Below are positions 1,466-20,605 of a stretch of 24,492 bases of DNA, in pieces. The notes beneath the pieces were generated by a model, which saw only the letters and a list, made by a program, of their open reading frames with translations, was not told the origin of the DNA and searched no databases. The position numbers and the translations under genes are program-made. The DNA is taken from positions 1 through 24,492 of IMG/VR virus record IMGVR_UViG_3300043331_002118; one strand, given 5' to 3'. The DNA is from a virus. Each line of letters begins with the position of its first letter. The stretch's first letter is position 1.

Positions 1466-2128
1466 ATGAAAAACAAATTTTTGACGCTGCTTGCAGTTGG
1501 CGCGGCGGCTGCATTTTTAACAGCACAAACACCAAAAACAGAAGCAGCGGGCGAAATTGTACAACCTTATAGACAAGCTATAGGCAGTCACCAATATGTT
1601 ATAAAACGCGGGGACACCCTTTTTAAAATATGTAATTTGCTGCATATCTCTAAAAGCGAATTAATGAAAGCAAACCCAGCTCTACAGCAAAGCGGCGGGA
1701 ATAAAATTTATGCAGATCAAACGCTAGAATTGCCGCAGGAAGAAAGCATGAGCGGGTATGAGCAGCAAGTTTTGCAGTTAACAAATAATGAACGTGCAAA
1801 AGCAGGCTTGCAACCTTTAATGGGCAATTACAGCGAATTAAATTCGAGCGCCCGCGTGAAAGCCGAAGACATGGAAAAAAATAATTATTTCTCACATACT
1901 AGCCCAACACTTGGCGACCCCTTTAAACAAATGCGCGCGATGGGGGTTACTTATTCAGCAGCAGGGGAGAACATTGCAAAAGGGCAGCAGACCCCGCAGG
2001 AAGTTGTTAACGCTTGGATGAATAGCGCAGGACACCGCGCCAACATTTTAAACGGCGCTTATACCCATATGGGCGTTGGCTATACGAGCAATTCTAAATG
2101 CTGGGTACAGCAATTTGCGGCGAAATGA
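1466..2128 (+). CDS. Secreted LysM and CAP/SCP-domain protein (YkwD/SafA-like)
   Basis: The 220-residue product starts with a Sec signal peptide (Lys-rich start, hydrophobic core about residues 5-20, probable cleavage near residues 26-29). A LysM module follows (about 43-90, opening with YVIKRGDTLFKI), and then a CAP domain (about 98-219). The CAP cavity residues His144, Glu168 and His190 are present in their usual motifs, including the AGENIAKG and NSAGHRANIL stretches. LysM binds N-acetylglucosamine-containing peptidoglycan, so the protein should sit in the wall. The biochemical activity of bacterial CAP domains is not settled. This architecture is common in Bacillota chromosomes (YkwD-like) but odd inside a phage lysis cassette. 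AGGAGG at 1451-1456 sets the start. It overlaps the next tiny membrane gene by ATGA. Confidence 0.88.
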   Translation: MKNKFLTLLAVGAAAAFLTAQTPKTEAAGEIVQPYRQAIGSHQYVIKRGDTLFKICNLLHISKSELMKANPALQQSGGNKIYADQTLELPQEESMSGYEQQVLQLTNNERAKAGLQPLMGNYSELNSSARVKAEDMEKNNYFSHTSPTLGDPFKQMRAMGVTYSAAGENIAKGQQTPQEVVNAWMNSAGHRANILNGAYTHMGVGYTSNSKCWVQQFAAK

Positions 2129-3929: not shown

Positions 3930-4019
3930 CCCCGCAGGCATACAGGGAACGTCTTTGCCTATTCGACGTTTTGCCGAGGGGACGAAACAGGCGCCCACAA
4001 AGCAGGGGGCGTCTTTTTT
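3930..4019 (+). promoter_or_regulatory. Folded mRNA leader with terminator (riboswitch- or attenuator-like)
   Basis: Three nested stems are visible: CCCC (3930-3933) with GGGG (3978-3981), GGCA (3937-3940) with TGCC (3972-3975), and AACGTC (3948-3953) with GACGTT (3965-3970). Directly after comes a terminator, GGCGCCC (3990-3996) with GGGCGTC (4007-4013) and six T. The ribosome binding site of the next gene begins eleven bases later at 4030. Folded domain, then terminator, then gene is the layout of transcriptional riboswitches and protein-controlled attenuators. No known class was recognised from its core sequence. A plain terminator for the preceding region is the dull alternative. Confidence 0.5.
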
Positions 4020-5307: not shown

Positions 5308-5532
5308 TTATAGCTTTATGTCTTGTACATTTTGCATATCCTTCATTGCAAAAAATCTAAAGTCTTGCTTGTCCATGTCATATGCTTCTATTAACCATTG
5401 GTCTTCTTTATGCCATTGATTGGAACCGAAAAACATACAAATGAGTTGAGCGCGGCGCTTGCCTGTTTCGCCCTTATAATTTGTATAGTCAAATTCAACA
5501 GCGCGCATTTTTTTAAGATAAGCCCTTTTCAT
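5308..5532 (-). CDS. Small WYL-like protein
   Basis: This 74-residue protein reads like a single minimal WYL-type sheet. A VEFDYTNYKGE segment (about 12-22) is followed by an arginine pair, then a WLIEAYDMDKQDFRFFAM segment (about 46-63) and a final short strand-helix. WYL domains are Sm-like beta folds that bind nucleic acid or nucleotides and usually form part of transcription regulators with an N-terminal HTH. Here there is no HTH. The ATG overlaps the stop of the upstream gene (ATGA on the minus strand), so the two are coupled. The similarity is by eye and moderate; a phage-specific small beta protein is possible. Confidence 0.6.
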   Translation of the reverse strand: MKRAYLKKMRAVEFDYTNYKGETGKRRAQLICMFFGSNQWHKEDQWLIEAYDMDKQDFRFFAMKDMQNVQDIKL

Positions 5533-5876
5533 TCGTTGGGCTTGTCCTGCTTCATTTTCAGATAAACTTCATGCTGCGCCAGTGTGCCGTTGCTATCGGG
5601 ATGATTTTCTAGTTCTGTTTCAATTGCCTTGTCCGCGCAGAAGTGCAAAAAGGTTGCATATTTGCGCGGGGACATGGTTAATTCTTCATTACATAATTTA
5701 ATAGCAGCCCGCAGCAAGTGAACAAGGCAAGTCGCTGCGGTTTCAATATTCATTTTCCCGCTATACAATCCCATAGGGGCGTTTGTAACATCTTTCATAC
5801 GCCCGCCAACAAACGCGCTTTCTAGCTCTATTTTTGTTCCGTCGCCTAAAATAATTGTTACTTCATCTAATTTCAT
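5529..5876 (-). CDS. Hypothetical protein, 115 residues
   Basis: The first 25 residues look like two beta strands around a turn (ILGDGTKIELESAF), followed by a largely helical body (about 45-110) with a short Cys/His-containing segment, LHFCADKA. No membrane helix or signal peptide. AAGGAG precedes the ATG. It is the first gene of a two-gene minus-strand unit with the WYL-like protein. No family recognised; a protein that assembles with the small WYL partner is a reasonable guess from the overlap only. Confidence 0.65.
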   Translation of the reverse strand: MKLDEVTIILGDGTKIELESAFVGGRMKDVTNAPMGLYSGKMNIETAATCLVHLLRAAIKLCNEELTMSPRKYATFLHFCADKAIETELENHPDSNGTLAQHEVYLKMKQDKPNE

Positions 5877-6006
5877 TTGTTCATTCTCCTTTTATAAATG
5901 ATGTACTTGCATAAAGTTAGCAGAGCGCCAATATATTTGAATTGTCGCTGTTTCTCTTTCAGTGTTTCCGGTTTCCCAAAATTTTCTATTCGTTACCTCT
6001 TTTGTG

Positions 6007-6795: not shown

Positions 6796-7104
6796 TTATA
6801 TTTTATATTCGTCTATTACGTCCCCGTCTGCGTTCAATTCGTGATACCAACCAAATTCAATATATCCTATGTCATTTCCGTCGTCGTCTACTTCAAATAG
6901 TTTACCGTCAAAATAATAATAACTAAATTCTTCTTTTTCCAATTCCATTAACATATCATACCAATCCCCATCTTTTAAACGATTTTCAAACCGATAGAGA
7001 AAATACATTGTATCTTTTAGCGTCCATTCTTTGCCGTGTTTCTTCCAAGCGTCGCCGCCCCATTCTTGCAAAAACTCTATATCGGAAAATTTAACATTGA
7101 TCAT
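6796..7104 (-). CDS. Acidic hypothetical protein, 102 residues
   Basis: The product is rich in Asp, Glu, Trp and Tyr, with a segment DWYDMLMELEKEEFSYYYF and an acidic hairpin EVDDDGNDIGYIEF. It has no cysteine, signal or membrane segment. The strong negative charge could mimic DNA or match a basic surface, as some phage inhibitors do, but this is only composition. It starts five bases after the stop of the 7109-7351 gene and shares its promoter at 7393-7422. Confidence 0.65.
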   Translation of the reverse strand: MINVKFSDIEFLQEWGGDAWKKHGKEWTLKDTMYFLYRFENRLKDGDWYDMLMELEKEEFSYYYFDGKLFEVDDDGNDIGYIEFGWYHELNADGDVIDEYKI

Positions 7105-7108
7105 TTTA

Positions 7109-7351
7109 TTAAGCCCCCATTAATTCATTATTTTTAGATTCTTCTTGAAGCCACAACCAAAGGGCAAGCTCTACACCGTCGAAAATTGCCGTGAAAAATT
7201 CGGCGTTACATTCTAGTACAGCAGCTTTTGCGACTTGAGCCAGCGGCTTGTTTGGCGTTTCTGCTAGAATCGCGGCAGCTGCTTGCTTTGCTTGTGATAG
7301 GAGCATTTTTTCTAAATCGTTAATTTCTTTCATCAATTCGTAATTAGTCAT
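7109..7351 (-). CDS. Hypothetical helical protein, about 80 residues
   Basis: Two in-frame ATG codons lie at 7357 and 7351. The AAGGAG is only two bases from the first and eight from the second, so 7351 is preferred. The product is helical: an N-terminal charged helix, an Ala-rich helix (QAKQAAAAILAE) and a hydrophobic end with LALWLWL. No family recognised. It is the first gene behind one copy of the repeated promoter-operator cassette. Confidence 0.65.
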   Translation of the reverse strand: MTNYELMKEINDLEKMLLSQAKQAAAAILAETPNKPLAQVAKAAVLECNAEFFTAIFDGVELALWLWLQEESKNNELMGA

Positions 7352-7380
7352 TGTCATTTCTCCTTTTTGTTTGCTGTTAA

Positions 7381-7422
7381 CCTTACAACTTTATTATAGC
7401 AAATAGTTGGCGTTATGCCAAC
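7381..7422 (-). promoter_or_regulatory. Repeated promoter-operator-leader cassette, copy A
   Basis: Minus strand: -35 TTGGCA (complement of 7416-7421), 17-base spacer, -10 TATAAT (complement of 7393-7398), then GTAAGG at the expected start site (complement of 7381-7386). The -35 lies in the palindrome GTTGGC-N5-GCCAAC (7406-7422), so a bound repressor would block polymerase. Confidence 0.8.
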
Positions 7423-7442
7423 CCTAAAAAGGAAGAAAGCAC

Positions 7443-7470
7443 AAAAAAAGAGCTGCCTTTTAATGGCAAC
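7443..7470 (-). terminator. Minus-strand terminator after the 7483-7839 gene
   Basis: On the minus strand GTTGCC (complement of 7465-7470) pairs with GGCAGC (complement of 7452-7457) with one wobble, followed by TC and seven T. Confidence 0.6.
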
Positions 7471-7482
7471 CCTACTTTATTT

Positions 7483-7839
7483 TTATATGAAAAATTCGTC
7501 CGCGTCGGCTTCTTCTGCTTCAATTTCTTCTGCGGTCATTTTTAAATATTTGCTATTTTCCACCTTATCAGCAAGGCGCTTTTCATCTATTCTATAAATA
7601 CATTGGTCAAAGCTAACACTAGCCCCCGTATGAATGTTTTCAATTCCATATTTCCATTCAAATTGCGCGCTTATTGGGTCTATGCCCCTAAACATGACAT
7701 ACGCTGTATAAGTACCGCAGCTAGAATAATAAAAGATGATATTCTTTTCAAGATCATACGAGCCGCGTTTAAATTCGACGGGCTGCGGAGCTTTTGCCAT
7801 ATCTTTCATTTCTTCCAAATCAAAAATTTTATTAGTCAT
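7483..7839 (-). CDS. Hypothetical protein, 118 residues
   Basis: AAGGAG lies eight bases before the ATG. The central part (about 20-85) is beta-rich with aromatic residues and one cysteine in YSSCGTYTAY. The C-terminal 30 residues are a very acidic helix. No membrane segment or known motif. Its 5' leader carries the same GTAAGG plus AACAAACAAAAAGGAG-type sequence as the cassette genes but no promoter in front, so it is probably read through from the 8134 gene. Confidence 0.65.
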   Translation of the reverse strand: MTNKIFDLEEMKDMAKAPQPVEFKRGSYDLEKNIIFYYSSCGTYTAYVMFRGIDPISAQFEWKYGIENIHTGASVSFDQCIYRIDEKRLADKVENSKYLKMTAEEIEAEEADADEFFI

Positions 7840-7882
7840 TGTGCAATCTCCTTTTTGTTTGTTATGTCCTTACACCGCCAAA

Positions 7883-7908
7883 GGCAGCGGGCTTTTATGC
7901 CCCCTGCC
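7883..7908. repeat. Intercistronic hairpin
   Basis: GGCAG-C-GGGC (7883-7892) faces GCCC-C-CTGCC (7899-7908) across a six-base loop with one mismatch. There is no T run on either strand, so an mRNA processing or stabilising stem is more likely than a terminator. It occupies the place where the sister units have their promoter. Confidence 0.55.
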
Positions 7909-7912
7909 CATA

Positions 7913-8134
7913 TTAAACGTTAGCTTTCAGTTGATTAAATTGATAGTTAATTTCGTTTGGAGAAACTGTATTTTCAATAACTAGCTTTTCAAGATTGGCG
8001 ATAGAAGCAAGAGCCGTTTTGTTAGTAGTCATTTCTTTAATGCCAGCAAATTGATATTTAATTTCGCTATTAGAAGGGCGATAGTTCAAAACCATATTTT
8101 GTAATGAGTTAAGAGCTGCTTGTAATTTTGTCAT
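7913..8134 (-). CDS. Small protein of two tandem ~30-residue repeats
   Basis: The 73-residue product contains two related halves. SNSEIKYQFAGIKEM in the first matches SPNEINYQFNQLKAN in the second, each preceded by an amphipathic stretch (LQNMVLNY and LEKLVIEN). The halves probably form paired helical units. It follows copy B of the promoter cassette. No family recognised. Confidence 0.65.
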   Translation of the reverse strand: MTKLQAALNSLQNMVLNYRPSNSEIKYQFAGIKEMTTNKTALASIANLEKLVIENTVSPNEINYQFNQLKANV

Positions 8135-8168
8135 TTTGTTTGTCCTCTTTTCGTTTGTTTGTTGTGTT

Positions 8169-8211
8169 CCTTACAAAAATAATTATAGCATATAGTTGGC
8201 ACATTGCCAAC
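8169..8211 (-). promoter_or_regulatory. Repeated promoter-operator-leader cassette, copy B
   Basis: Minus strand: TTGGCA (complement of 8205-8210), 17 bases, TATAAT (complement of 8182-8187), GTAAGG at the start site (complement of 8169-8174). The palindrome GTTGGC-N5-GCCAAC covers 8195-8211. Confidence 0.8.
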
Positions 8212-8242
8212 CTTTTTGAGAAAAAAGTTTTAATAGAGCGCA

Positions 8243-8267
8243 GAAAAAAAGCGCCCGTTTAGGCGCT
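8243..8267 (-). terminator. Minus-strand terminator overlapping a stop codon
   Basis: On the minus strand AGCGCC and GGCGCT (complements of 8262-8267 and 8250-8255) form a perfect stem, followed by seven T. The stop codon of the 8259-8477 gene is in the loop. Confidence 0.75.
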
Positions 8268-8477
8268 TGCAAGATGATCTTTCACTATATCAGAAGCCAT
8301 TTTTTTATTGTCATTGAAAACCAATTCAGCAATTTGCATACCGTTAAGCCCTTCAATTTGATAGTTTGAGCTAACATTCATTACGTCCATAACGCGTTTT
8401 GCCCCATATGCTATTGCTACTTTATCATTTGTTTTGCTATAGATTGCCTTTAGATTTTTTTCGTTGAATTTTGCCAT
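8259..8477 (-). CDS. Hypothetical protein, 72 residues
   Basis: A single-gene unit with its own promoter (copy C) and its own terminator. The product is Asn- and Lys-rich, with N-terminal and C-terminal helices and a middle part reading NVSSNYQIEGLNGMQIAEL. It shares length and general Asn/Ile/Leu character with the repeat protein at 7913-8134, and its SSNYQIEGLN segment recalls the SEIKYQFAGIK units there, so a distant common origin is possible. No family recognised. A GGGGG run precedes the ATG. Confidence 0.65.
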   Translation of the reverse strand: MAKFNEKNLKAIYSKTNDKVAIAYGAKRVMDVMNVSSNYQIEGLNGMQIAELVFNDNKKMASDIVKDHLASA

Positions 8478-8512
8478 GATTGATAACCCCCGTTAATTTG
8501 TTTTGTTGTCTG

Positions 8513-8555
8513 CCTTACATGTATAAATATATCATATAGTTGGCGTTGTGCCAAC
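8513..8555 (-). promoter_or_regulatory. Repeated promoter-operator-leader cassette, copy C
   Basis: Minus strand: TTGGCA (complement of 8549-8554), 17 bases, TATATT (complement of 8526-8531), GTAAGG at the start site (complement of 8513-8518). The palindrome GTTGGC-N5-GCCAAC covers 8539-8555. Confidence 0.8.
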
Positions 8556-8578: not shown

Positions 8579-8602
8579 AAAAAAGAGCGCTTAAAGGCGC
8601 CC
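8579..8602 (-). terminator. Minus-strand terminator after the 8591-8812 gene
   Basis: On the minus strand GGGCGC and GCGCTC (complements of 8597-8602 and 8585-8590) pair with one G-T wobble, followed by a T run. It closes the operon that starts at the 10637 gene. Confidence 0.65.
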
Positions 8603-8812
8603 TTGCTTTTCTAGCTCATATTCTTTATTTAAAGCGTTTACGGCTTGTTCATGGCATTTTAAATACTCCTCTAATGTTAAGCCCGCCGCGATCATATCCC
8701 GTTTATACTTTTGCATAACGTCGAAAATATCAGCCCTGTTTTGCTTGTAAAGATGATAGATATTAGACCGTGCTATTATTTGCAGCTGCGCCTTTTCAAC
8801 AGTCATTGTCAT
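8591..8812 (-). CDS. Hypothetical helical protein, 73 residues
   Basis: The ATG at 8812 lies ten bases after a GAGGGGGG site; a second ATG at 8806 is possible. The product is predicted all-helical, with HLYKQNRADIFDVMQKY and a C-terminal Lys/Glu helix. It begins inside the end of the 8796-9008 gene (17-base overlap). Last gene of the minus-strand operon. No family recognised. Confidence 0.65.
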   Translation of the reverse strand: MTMTVEKAQLQIIARSNIYHLYKQNRADIFDVMQKYKRDMIAAGLTLEEYLKCHEQAVNALNKEYELEKQGRL

Positions 8813-10637: not shown

Positions 10638-10656
10638 ATTTTCACCTCTCTTTCTT

Positions 10657-10685
10657 TGTAAACAGAAGAAAATTTTCTGTTTACA
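10657..10685. promoter_or_regulatory. Palindromic operator 1
   Basis: TGTAAACAGAA (10657-10667) and TTCTGTTTACA (10675-10685) are perfect inverted arms around seven bases. It sits downstream of the minus-strand -10, over the probable start site and just before the 10637 gene. Confidence 0.75.
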
Positions 10686-10690
10686 GATTT

Positions 10691-10720: not shown

Positions 10721-10728
10721 GCCCTAAT

Positions 10729-10759
10729 TTGTAAACAGAATAAAATTTTCTGTTTACAA
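10729..10759. promoter_or_regulatory. Palindromic operator 2
   Basis: TTGTAAACAGAA (10729-10740) and TTCTGTTTACAA (10748-10759) are perfect arms around seven bases. Its centre is 73 bases from operator 1, close to seven helical turns, which would allow two bound dimers to meet on one face of the DNA. Confidence 0.75.
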
Positions 10760-15075: not shown

Positions 15076-15107
15076 AAAAAAAGCAGCCCGCAACGGCTGC
15101 TTTTTTT
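15076..15107. terminator. Bidirectional terminator
   Basis: AAAAAAAGCAGCC (15076-15088) is the exact inverse of GGCTGCTTTTTTT (15095-15107), so it works for the repressor gene on the minus strand and for anything entering from the left. Confidence 0.8.
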
Positions 15108-15441
15108 ATTTGGCTTGCTTTCTTGTATATTCTATTACGTCTCTTTCCGGTTCCAGCCCCAACATTTCGTCCAGCGTCACATTGTAAAGGCGCGTTAAGT
15201 TGATCAAAATTGACAGAGACGGCAAACGATAATACGTCGCGTCTGCTGCTGCTTCATATCCTTTGTACGTATAAGGAGCAACCCCCAAAAATTCCGCAAC
15301 GTCCGCAATCTTTAAATTATGGTCTTTTCGTTTTTGCTTGAGAAAATCCCCAACATAAATATTTTTGTTATCTATGTTTTCGTTCTTTACGCGTTCAATA
15401 ACTCTTTTTGTAATAGTAGGTTTAACGGCTGCGATTGCCAT
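15106..15441 (-). CDS. XRE-family helix-turn-helix repressor
   Basis: The 111-residue product has a lambda-repressor-like HTH domain at about 32-95. LKQKRKDHNLKIADVAEFLG gives helices one and two, VAPYTYKGYEAA the recognition helix, and SLSILINLTRLYNVTLDEMLG the closing helices typical of Cro/CI-type proteins. There is no LexA/S24 autocleavage domain, so induction by RecA-driven cleavage is not expected. AAGGGGG lies seven bases before the ATG. It is transcribed divergently from the recombination operon and is the best candidate to bind the TTGGC-type sites in the window, including half-sites at its own promoter. Confidence 0.85.
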   Translation of the reverse strand: MAIAAVKPTITKRVIERVKNENIDNKNIYVGDFLKQKRKDHNLKIADVAEFLGVAPYTYKGYEAAADATYYRLPSLSILINLTRLYNVTLDEMLGLEPERDVIEYTRKQAK

Positions 15442-15482: not shown

Positions 15483-15538
15483 ATTATATCTCAAAATGTT
15501 GGCAATGTGTATACTTTCTTTCTACCAAAATATACACA
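15483..15538 (-). promoter_or_regulatory. Repressor promoter and inverted repeat
   Basis: Minus strand: TATAAT (complement of 15483-15488) with TACACA (complement of 15506-15511) 17 bases upstream. The -35 lies in one arm of TGTGTATA (15506-15513)/TATACACA (15531-15538), 17-base spacer. A half-site GTTGGC (15498-15503) is in the promoter spacer. Autoregulation is likely. Confidence 0.55.
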
Positions 15539-15578: not shown

Positions 15579-15624
15579 TTGTACGATTGGCAGAAGTGTT
15601 ATATAATTAGTTATATTAGTTGGC
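15579..15624 (+). promoter_or_regulatory. Recombination-operon promoter TTGTAC-17-TATAAT with TTGGC half-sites
   Basis: TTGTAC (15579-15584) and TATAAT (15602-15607) are 17 bases apart. TTGGC half-sites occur in the spacer (15587-15591) and just after the start region (15620-15624). The promoter overlaps an upstream in-frame TTG, which is therefore not the true start of the YqaJ gene. Confidence 0.65.
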
Positions 15625-15650
15625 ATTTGAGCAAAAGAGGAGGAGCGGAA

Positions 15651-16613
15651 TTGAAGAAAATAGCACATACTGACAGTTTAACGCAAGCCGAATGGTTAGA
15701 AGTGAGACGCGGCGGCATTGGCGGGAGCGACATTTCAACAATCTTTAATCTTAATGAGTGGAAATCACAAACTTATCTCTATATGGAAAAGCGCGGCGAA
15801 ATTACGCCGGATGATTTAACAGATAATGAGCCTGTTTATTGGGGCAATCAGTTAGAAGACATTATCAGAAAAGAGTTTCAGAAGCGCAACGGCTGGAAAG
15901 TGTATAAAAACAATTTTGTCCTTTGCCATGACGAATACGATTATTTAAGGGCAAACATTGACGGAGAAGTATTACACCCAGCAGACGGGCGCGGCGTCCT
16001 AGAGATCAAAACAACCAATGAATACAATAAAGACGAGTGGAGCGGCGATCATGTCCCAAATGCCTACATGCTGCAAATTCAATACTATATGGGCATTATG
16101 AATTATGGTTTCGCCTATGTTGCCGTTTTAATAGGCGGGAACAAATATAGACAATGGCGAATAGAGCGCGACGACGATTTAATAAATATGATCTTTGCCC
16201 GCTGCCATGCGTTTTGGCAGAGAGTGAAAGCAGGCAACCCGCCAGCGCTGGACGGTCATAAAAGTACAGGCGACGCGCTGCAGAAGTATTTCCCCCTTGA
16301 GAATGAGAAAGAGGGCGTAATAGAGCTTTCACACGACGCAACAGCCGCCCAGCTATTACAGCGGCATGAGGAAATCAAACAGGAATTAAGCAAGTTGACA
16401 GAGGAAAAAGAAGCCGTTGCAAATGAGCTTAAAAACAAGCTGGGCGACTTTACGCAGGCAAATTGTCATGATTTTGTTATCACATGGAAAGCGCCAAAAG
16501 AATCATTTTCCATTGCTGCAAAAGACCTGTTAGCAGCTGCGCCGGATGTATACGAAAAAATTAAAAAGCCGAAAAAGAGAAGCAGGACATTTAATATAAA
16601 AATTGCAAAGTAA
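15651..16613 (+). CDS. yqaJ: YqaJ-family viral recombinase / lambda-type exonuclease
   Basis: Start at the TTG at 15651, behind AGAGGAGG with eight-base spacing; 320 residues. The PD-(D/E)XK nuclease core is plain: RRGGIGGSDIS at 19-29, YWGNQLED (63-70) with Glu69, the metal-binding Asp104 in RANIDGEV, and Glu118-x-Lys120 in VLEIKTT. The last 100 residues are a coiled-coil and basic tail. The enzyme resects double-strand ends 5' to 3' to give single strands for annealing. RecT is encoded two genes downstream, forming the usual two-component recombination system. Confidence 0.9.
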   Translation: MKKIAHTDSLTQAEWLEVRRGGIGGSDISTIFNLNEWKSQTYLYMEKRGEITPDDLTDNEPVYWGNQLEDIIRKEFQKRNGWKVYKNNFVLCHDEYDYLRANIDGEVLHPADGRGVLEIKTTNEYNKDEWSGDHVPNAYMLQIQYYMGIMNYGFAYVAVLIGGNKYRQWRIERDDDLINMIFARCHAFWQRVKAGNPPALDGHKSTGDALQKYFPLENEKEGVIELSHDATAAQLLQRHEEIKQELSKLTEEKEAVANELKNKLGDFTQANCHDFVITWKAPKESFSIAAKDLLAAAPDVYEKIKKPKKRSRTFNIKIAK

Positions 16614-20221: not shown

Positions 20222-20605
20222 AAAAGCCCCCTGTTTGTTATGTATAAGCCCGTCAAAAAGCGGACAAGCAATATAATATTATTTATACTGTCTTATGGTA
20301 TATAGATTATATTTAACCCCATAAACAATAAGAGTACATATATCTTTAAAAGATGTTTAAAAGAATTTAAGAGAGTATTCTTTAAAACCTTAAAAAGATG
20401 ATCTTATAAAGATTTTAAAGATAAACCCATATATCTTTATTTGATATATAGACTAATACAGGATATTAAACAAAGTATTATTAAACATTACCCAGCCCCG
20501 CCCCGTTTATTCATGTCGAAAATTATTAATATTTGGCAAGATTAAAACGCCCGTTTTTTGTCCAAAATGGTTAGCACAGGATAAAAAACAAAGGGTTGAG
20601 GAGCA
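20222..20605. other. AT-rich non-coding tract, possible replication origin
   Basis: No gene is supported. From about 20270 to 20490 the sequence is almost entirely A and T and contains many variants of TTTAAAAGA/TCTTTAAA: ATCTTTAAAAGATG at 20342-20355, TTTAAAAGAATTTAAGAG just after, TTCTTTAAAACC, TTAAAAAGATGATC, and AAGATTTTAAAGAT at 20410-20423. ATATATCTTT occurs twice. The tract lies directly before the helicase-loader gene. It could be an AT-rich unwinding region with iterons or simply a promoter and leader. No DnaA-box consensus was seen. A TTGTCC at 20558-20563 with GATAAA 16 bases on may be the loader promoter. Confidence 0.45.

Follow-up and report, generated by a model that had tools for sequence, protein, structure and literature searches.

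The stretch of DNA analysed here (the window) is the complete 24,492-base virus record IMGVR_UViG_3300043331_002118 of IMG/VR. It encodes a Gp37-like tail protein, a SleB-like hydrolase, a holin, an endolysin, a block of small minus-strand genes and an XRE regulator, together with RecE, RecT, a DnaC-like protein, a Holliday-junction resolvase and a small terminase, and many of its ORFs belong to no family. From this gene content we infer that the window represents a temperate siphophage of the Bacillus type, with a Gram-positive and spore-forming host. The SleB-like cell-wall hydrolase (positions 1466-2128, plus strand; PHROG annotation 'sporulation protein') is phage-encoded and adjoins the lysis genes. 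Two near-identical 30-bp palindromes of the form TTTGTAAACAGAA-N-AAAATTTTCTGTTTACA, located at 10655-10687 and 10728-10758 with ~73 bp between them, lie upstream of a minus-strand operon for HNH/Lar-like and ParB-like proteins and possibly constitute an operator or a centromere-like site. The region at 20260-20470, upstream of the DnaC-like gene, is very rich in A and T, contains repeats of ATCTTTAAAAGAT-like units and is a candidate replication origin.

Three predicted promoter-operator blocks heading small-gene units

The small minus-strand genes considered here are arranged in three units. Unit 1 comprises genes for proteins of 82 (7109-7357) and 102 (6796-7104) amino acids, unit 2 genes for proteins of 73 (7913-8134) and 118 (7483-7839) amino acids, and unit 3 a single gene for a protein of 72 amino acids (8259-8477). 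The products have no Pfam match above the curated cut-off and no PHROG match at E 0.001, paralogy between them was tested and is not detectable, and no HTH family was found in any of them, the sole recognised HTH regulator of the window being encoded ~6.5 kb away. The 73-residue protein contains an internal duplication of ~28 residues (SNSEIKYQF / SPNEINYQF). Single-protein queries returned no close relatives in viral contigs, no DNA or protein similar to the 82-residue protein, the XRE regulator or the cassette region was present among 50,697 phage records, and no anti-CRISPR was identified in the window.

Each unit begins with the same minus-strand block, exactly where the original prediction had placed it. 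The palindrome GTTGGC-N5-GCCAAC occurs at 7406-7422, 8195-8211 and 8539-8555, and these three exact matches in the 24,492-base record compare with none in 100 dinucleotide shuffles. A longer core, GTTGGCN5GCCAACTATNTGNTATANT, likewise has three matches against an expectation of zero, even when three mismatches are allowed. The promoter scan confirmed, in all three blocks, the proposed -35 box TTGGCA within the first palindrome half, the 17-base spacer and the -10 box that follows, giving TTGGCA-17-TATAAT for promoters 1 (7393-7421) and 2 (8182-8210) and TTGGCA-17-TATATT for promoter 3 (8526-8554). TG precedes each -10 box, which is thus of the extended type. A motif-free scan, which required no more than a 6-N5-6 palindrome 7 nt ahead of an extended -10 box, yielded these three sites and no others in the window. 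With the palindrome centred ~30 bp ahead of the predicted start site, a protein bound there would obstruct RNA polymerase. An intrinsic terminator, a feature absent from the original prediction, is found on the minus strand upstream of unit 1 (7449-7473), unit 2 (8249-8268) and unit 3 (8583-8604), and the three units are therefore separate transcription units.

The repetition of one element three times within 1.2 kb could reflect recent duplications of a single promoter that carry no regulatory meaning. This is very improbable, as the palindrome spacers differ among the blocks (ATAAC, AATGT and ACAAC), so do the leaders and downstream genes, no paralogy is detectable among the small proteins, and only the palindrome halves and the promoter core are common to the blocks; in addition, two related phages, described below, combine this layout with another operator. 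The palindrome might also act as a hairpin in RNA or terminate plus-strand transcription (GTTGGC..GCCAAC followed by CTTTTT), the overlap with the promoter being secondary, and two of the three copies are indeed followed by a plus-strand T-run and were scored as terminator-like. However, the third copy and both copies in one of the related phages (L268) lack the T-run, the distance to the -10 box is fixed, and the site precedes the predicted start and is hence outside the transcript that it heads, so that a role of this kind is highly unlikely.

The GTAAGG element and the leaders

The sequence GTAAGG had been proposed to mark the start site, and in all three units it is found 6-7 nt past the -10 box, at 7381-7386, 8169-8174 and 8513-8518 (minus strand). 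The bare hexamer shows no enrichment across the window (7 copies against 6.3 expected), and consequently only its position carries meaning. The shared leader that was described together with it is genuine in that an A/C-rich leader is present in each unit, although the resemblance between AGCAAACAAA, AACAAACAAA and AACAAAACAAA is loose. The window leaders are almost without structure. A fourth GTAAGG with a AACAAACAAA leader (7854-7873, minus strand), lacking both palindrome and promoter, stands ahead of the 118-residue protein gene of unit 2. It is directly preceded by an RNA hairpin located between the two genes of this unit (7860-7910, minus strand; -23.8 kcal/mol, z -3.7), which is followed by UUU and possibly represents an attenuation or processing site. 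No known RNA family was recognised at gathering thresholds.

The pattern TATGNTATAAT-N6-7-GTAAGG has at least 120 matches in viral contigs. In the loci of the matches listed, GTAAGG follows extended -10 boxes in 19 instances against 0.6 expected, a count that leaves out every site fitting the selecting pattern, and TGTAAG and GTAAGA are likewise frequent after extended -10 boxes among the matches listed. TGTAAG(G/A) was observed 6-7 nt past the extended -10 box at many promoters of unrelated phages (contigs L348-L467, for example L386, L434 and L382). Because the element trails extended -10 boxes in so many phage promoters, neither GTAAGG nor the A/C-rich leader is specific to the regulon, and this part of the original prediction did not gain support in the form given. 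In independent viral loci GTAAGG after an extended -10 box is rare (1/189), and the extended -10 plus GTAAGG pattern was found once in 399 Bacilli genomes. GTAAGG is, judging from these patterns, a putative start-site element of some phage promoters rather than the definer of the three-unit regulon. No description of a TGTAAG(G/A) start-site element in phage promoters was found in the literature. Judged by eye, GTAAGG could pair with a later CCTTAC in several phages. An unrelated 84-kb phage (L351, position 10844) has a GTTGGC...GCCAAC pair with 18-bp spacing around a second palindrome centred on TTGACA, and the two palindromes are followed by TATGATATAAT and GTAAGG.

The XRE/recE control region and two related phages

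The XRE (HTH_3) regulator, a protein of 111 amino acids (15106-15441, minus strand; PF01381, 4.7e-7; phrog_8), is the candidate repressor, and its gene diverges from recE, which starts at 15651 on the plus strand. An operator-like site matching 9 of 12 positions (15498-15514) lies inside the spacer of the XRE promoter, and a second site with the same score (15619-15635) lies just past the predicted start of recE, whose promoter was read from the sequence as TTGTAC-17-TATAAT (15579-15607, plus strand). Of 924 overlapping windows scored elsewhere in the record, 8 reach this value. Both sites are half-degenerate rather than perfect palindromes and are weaker than the distal operators. The inverted repeat TGTGTATA (15506-15538) was considered as an alternative XRE operator. 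A further degenerate operator-like site (5916-5932), matching 10 of 12 positions and lacking a good -10 box, is located upstream of a minus-strand gene (5529-5876). Directly downstream of the latter gene is one for a 74-residue protein (5308-5532, minus strand) that consists of a WYL domain only (PF13280, above cut-off).

The comparison set consists of two distant relatives, L268 and L470, which are contigs reached via a RecE alignment and a RecT alignment and which both come from one metagenome. Their XRE proteins, 33% (L268) and 38% (L470) identical to that of the window, are also encoded divergently to recE, and L268 additionally has related RecE, RecT, DnaC and Holliday-junction-resolvase proteins in the same divergent XRE/recE layout. 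A profile search with the XRE protein returned three chromosomal HTH genes, none of which adjoins recE/recT, and no matching cassettes.

In L268 the motif-free scan retrieved exactly two sites, which share the half-site TWTCGC: ATTCGCTTTTTGCGAAA (position 178) and TATCGCATAAAGCGAAA (position 2873). By itself this result is modest, since 4 of 300 shuffles also reach two sites. Both sites head small genes, and that at 2873 has GTAAGG 7 nt past its -10 box. Copies matching 10 of 12 positions are present in the XRE promoter (3867) and just past the recE/cro start (3973), and none of the 406 other windows scores as high. The latter copy (3973-3989) occupies the same position as the window site at 15619-15635.

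The half-site of L470 is GTACGCC, which occurs five times against 0.28 expected, a number reached by none of 500 shuffles. Two copies lie in the cro/recE promoter, one each in the promoters of an ArdC antirestriction gene and of a gene for a 47-residue protein, and the fifth, at 7680, outside these promoters. The promoter of the 47-residue protein gene, TATGCTATAATTATTTTTGTAAG, is nearly that of window unit 2. A third accessory promoter, which precedes a TM2-domain gene (1763-2086), bears the variant GTATGCC. All four of the listed intergenic plus-strand promoters with an extended -10 box carry the half-site. The ArdC gene (829-1665) encodes ArdcN (2.9e-27) and MPTase-PolyVal (1.2e-32) domains, and a TM2-domain gene is found in L268 too (1904-2218). 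The L470 operators are strongly asymmetric, with a degenerate second half-site and a spacing that is off by 2 nt, and the palindrome score alone does not pick out the regulatory region (31/267 windows). L470 thus agrees with the apparent scheme of the window in principle, not in every detail.

What the three phages have in common is the layout and the inner GC-N5-GC core, which in L470 is complete on one side only; the small genes are not common to them, and no ArdC was recognised in the window even though operator-bearing promoters are present. The outer bases of the half-site are specific to each phage and appear to recur in the XRE/recE control region of that same phage. A conserved palindrome in related phages had been named as a test of the original prediction. 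At the level of sequence the palindrome is not conserved, the half-sites being TWTCGC and GTACGC in the relatives, but the promoter architecture is kept. The comparison lifts the block from a pattern in a single genome to what appears to be a kept architecture.

This recurrence bears on the nature of the protein that would bind the palindrome. The units lie on the XRE strand, between the lysis and the early genes, and have their own terminators, an arrangement typical of morons, so that they might be moron-like genes expressed in the lysogen and gated by a host regulator at the palindrome. We regard this as improbable, given that the half-site seems to shift between the relatives in concert with the XRE/recE region of each, a pattern that regulation by the host would not produce, and that 193 genomes of one Bacillales family, that of the presumed host, contain the strict promoter string only as weak, chance-like matches with two mismatches. 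This 29-base string is absent from viral contigs, and the bare palindrome pattern has only chance matches in the viral and genome collections. Alternatively, the palindrome could be the operator of another phage regulator, either Cro-like or an unannotated small DNA-binding protein, that activates or times the genes independently of the XRE switch. Consistent with such a regulator, both relatives encode an additional Cro-like HTH protein beside recE, the window sites near XRE and recE are weaker than those farther away, and ORFs without family are numerous in the window. In the window, however, recE has no recognised Cro-like neighbour, and the sites there flank the XRE gene itself, while a site centred near -30 makes an activator unlikely; we consider this alternative unlikely on balance. 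The regulator is likely to be the XRE protein and not one that is Cro-like or unrecognised. As the outer operator bases appear to track each phage's own XRE/recE region, the pattern points to a phage repressor of drifting specificity, and neither host regulation nor termination nor duplication without meaning would produce it.

A putative repressor-gated regulon of accessory genes

The reading that we favour, with a probability of roughly two in three, is that the phage XRE protein represses the three accessory promoters through the 17-bp operator and thereby controls an early set of accessory genes. The three blocks would be sigma-A-type promoters, each with one copy of GTTGGC-N5-GCCAAC over its -35 box, and the XRE protein would bind this operator as well as the weaker versions at its own promoter and just past the recE start. 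Since the -35 box lies beneath the sites, repression is the mode of action to be expected. During lysogeny, the XRE protein would deny RNA polymerase access to all operator-bearing promoters, keeping the units off, while upon entry of the DNA into a repressor-free cell, or upon induction, the three promoters would fire simultaneously. The short terminator-bounded units would then be expressed, yielding small accessory proteins that probably act early on the host. Three points of the original prediction, that the block is a promoter-operator unit, that the units form one regulon and that the XRE protein is the leading candidate for its control, gain support from the layout and from phage-specific half-sites that accessory promoters and the XRE/recE region have in common in both relatives.

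The closest parallel considered is the repressor-gated establishment regulon EGeRS2 of the Bacillus pumilus plasmid p576 and of clade II of the pLS20 family (PMC8708921). In p576 several dispersed strong promoters, each with an operator beside it, head ardC and small, mostly unknown genes, and one repressor, which also represses itself, allows a burst of expression after DNA entry until it accumulates (PMC8708921). Reg(p576) is a ribbon-helix-helix protein that binds direct heptamer repeats, TTATCCC-nn-TTATCCC, adjoining the -35 box (PMC8708921). The likeness extends to several operator-bearing promoters ahead of small genes in the window, where no ArdC was recognised, and in L470 to an ArdC member as well. 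In contrast, the candidate regulator here belongs to HTH_3 (XRE), the -35 box is overlain by a 6-N5-6 inverted repeat, and the carrier is a temperate phage. The putative window regulon would thus work like EGeRS2 but is no member of it.

The divergent orientation of XRE gene and early operon, separated by a promoter region that contains operator-like sites, resembles the lambda-type CI/Cro immunity region; the difference is that here extra, better-matching operators are found 7-8 kb away at accessory promoters. The repressor of Anoxybacillus phage A403 was dropped as a comparison, being a classical CI with a Zn peptidase. The c1 operators of P1 are dispersed binding sites of one phage repressor. 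Stoperators of the mycobacteriophage L5 type are likewise many genome-wide sites of one phage repressor, and they are asymmetric, oriented relative to transcription, located in transcribed regions and act on elongation (PMC9283540). The window shares with stoperators and P1 c1 operators a candidate single phage repressor with many sites across the genome, whereas, unlike stoperators, its accessory sites are perfect inverted repeats at promoters and overlap the -35 boxes. In acr-aca systems an early counter-defence burst is curtailed by an HTH autorepressor, with aca in the same operon (PMC8708921). The proposed scheme would also combine an early counter-defence burst with an HTH repressor, but here the candidate repressor is a distant XRE switch protein encoded outside the regulated operons. 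Dispersed phage-repressor operators are already known, and the putative window regulon is a new example of them, not a new mechanism.

The presence of ArdC in the presumed L470 regulon is a hint of a counter-defence role. More tentatively, and with somewhat less than even odds, the units may form an establishment regulon in which fast-changing small counter-defence proteins are placed under scattered operators of the immunity repressor, on at entry and silent in lysogeny, the operator changing together with the repressor. If this were true, scanning phages for their own switch operator at positions away from the switch would reveal anti-defence genes that lack homology. The comparison of the three phages indicates that operator sequence can drift while promoter geometry stays. 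If the repressor reading is right, the operator offers a handle on early accessory genes that lack recognisable homologues, with candidate anti-defence proteins among their products, and the immunity switch of the phage would be linked to entry-phase genes, as in conjugative plasmids.
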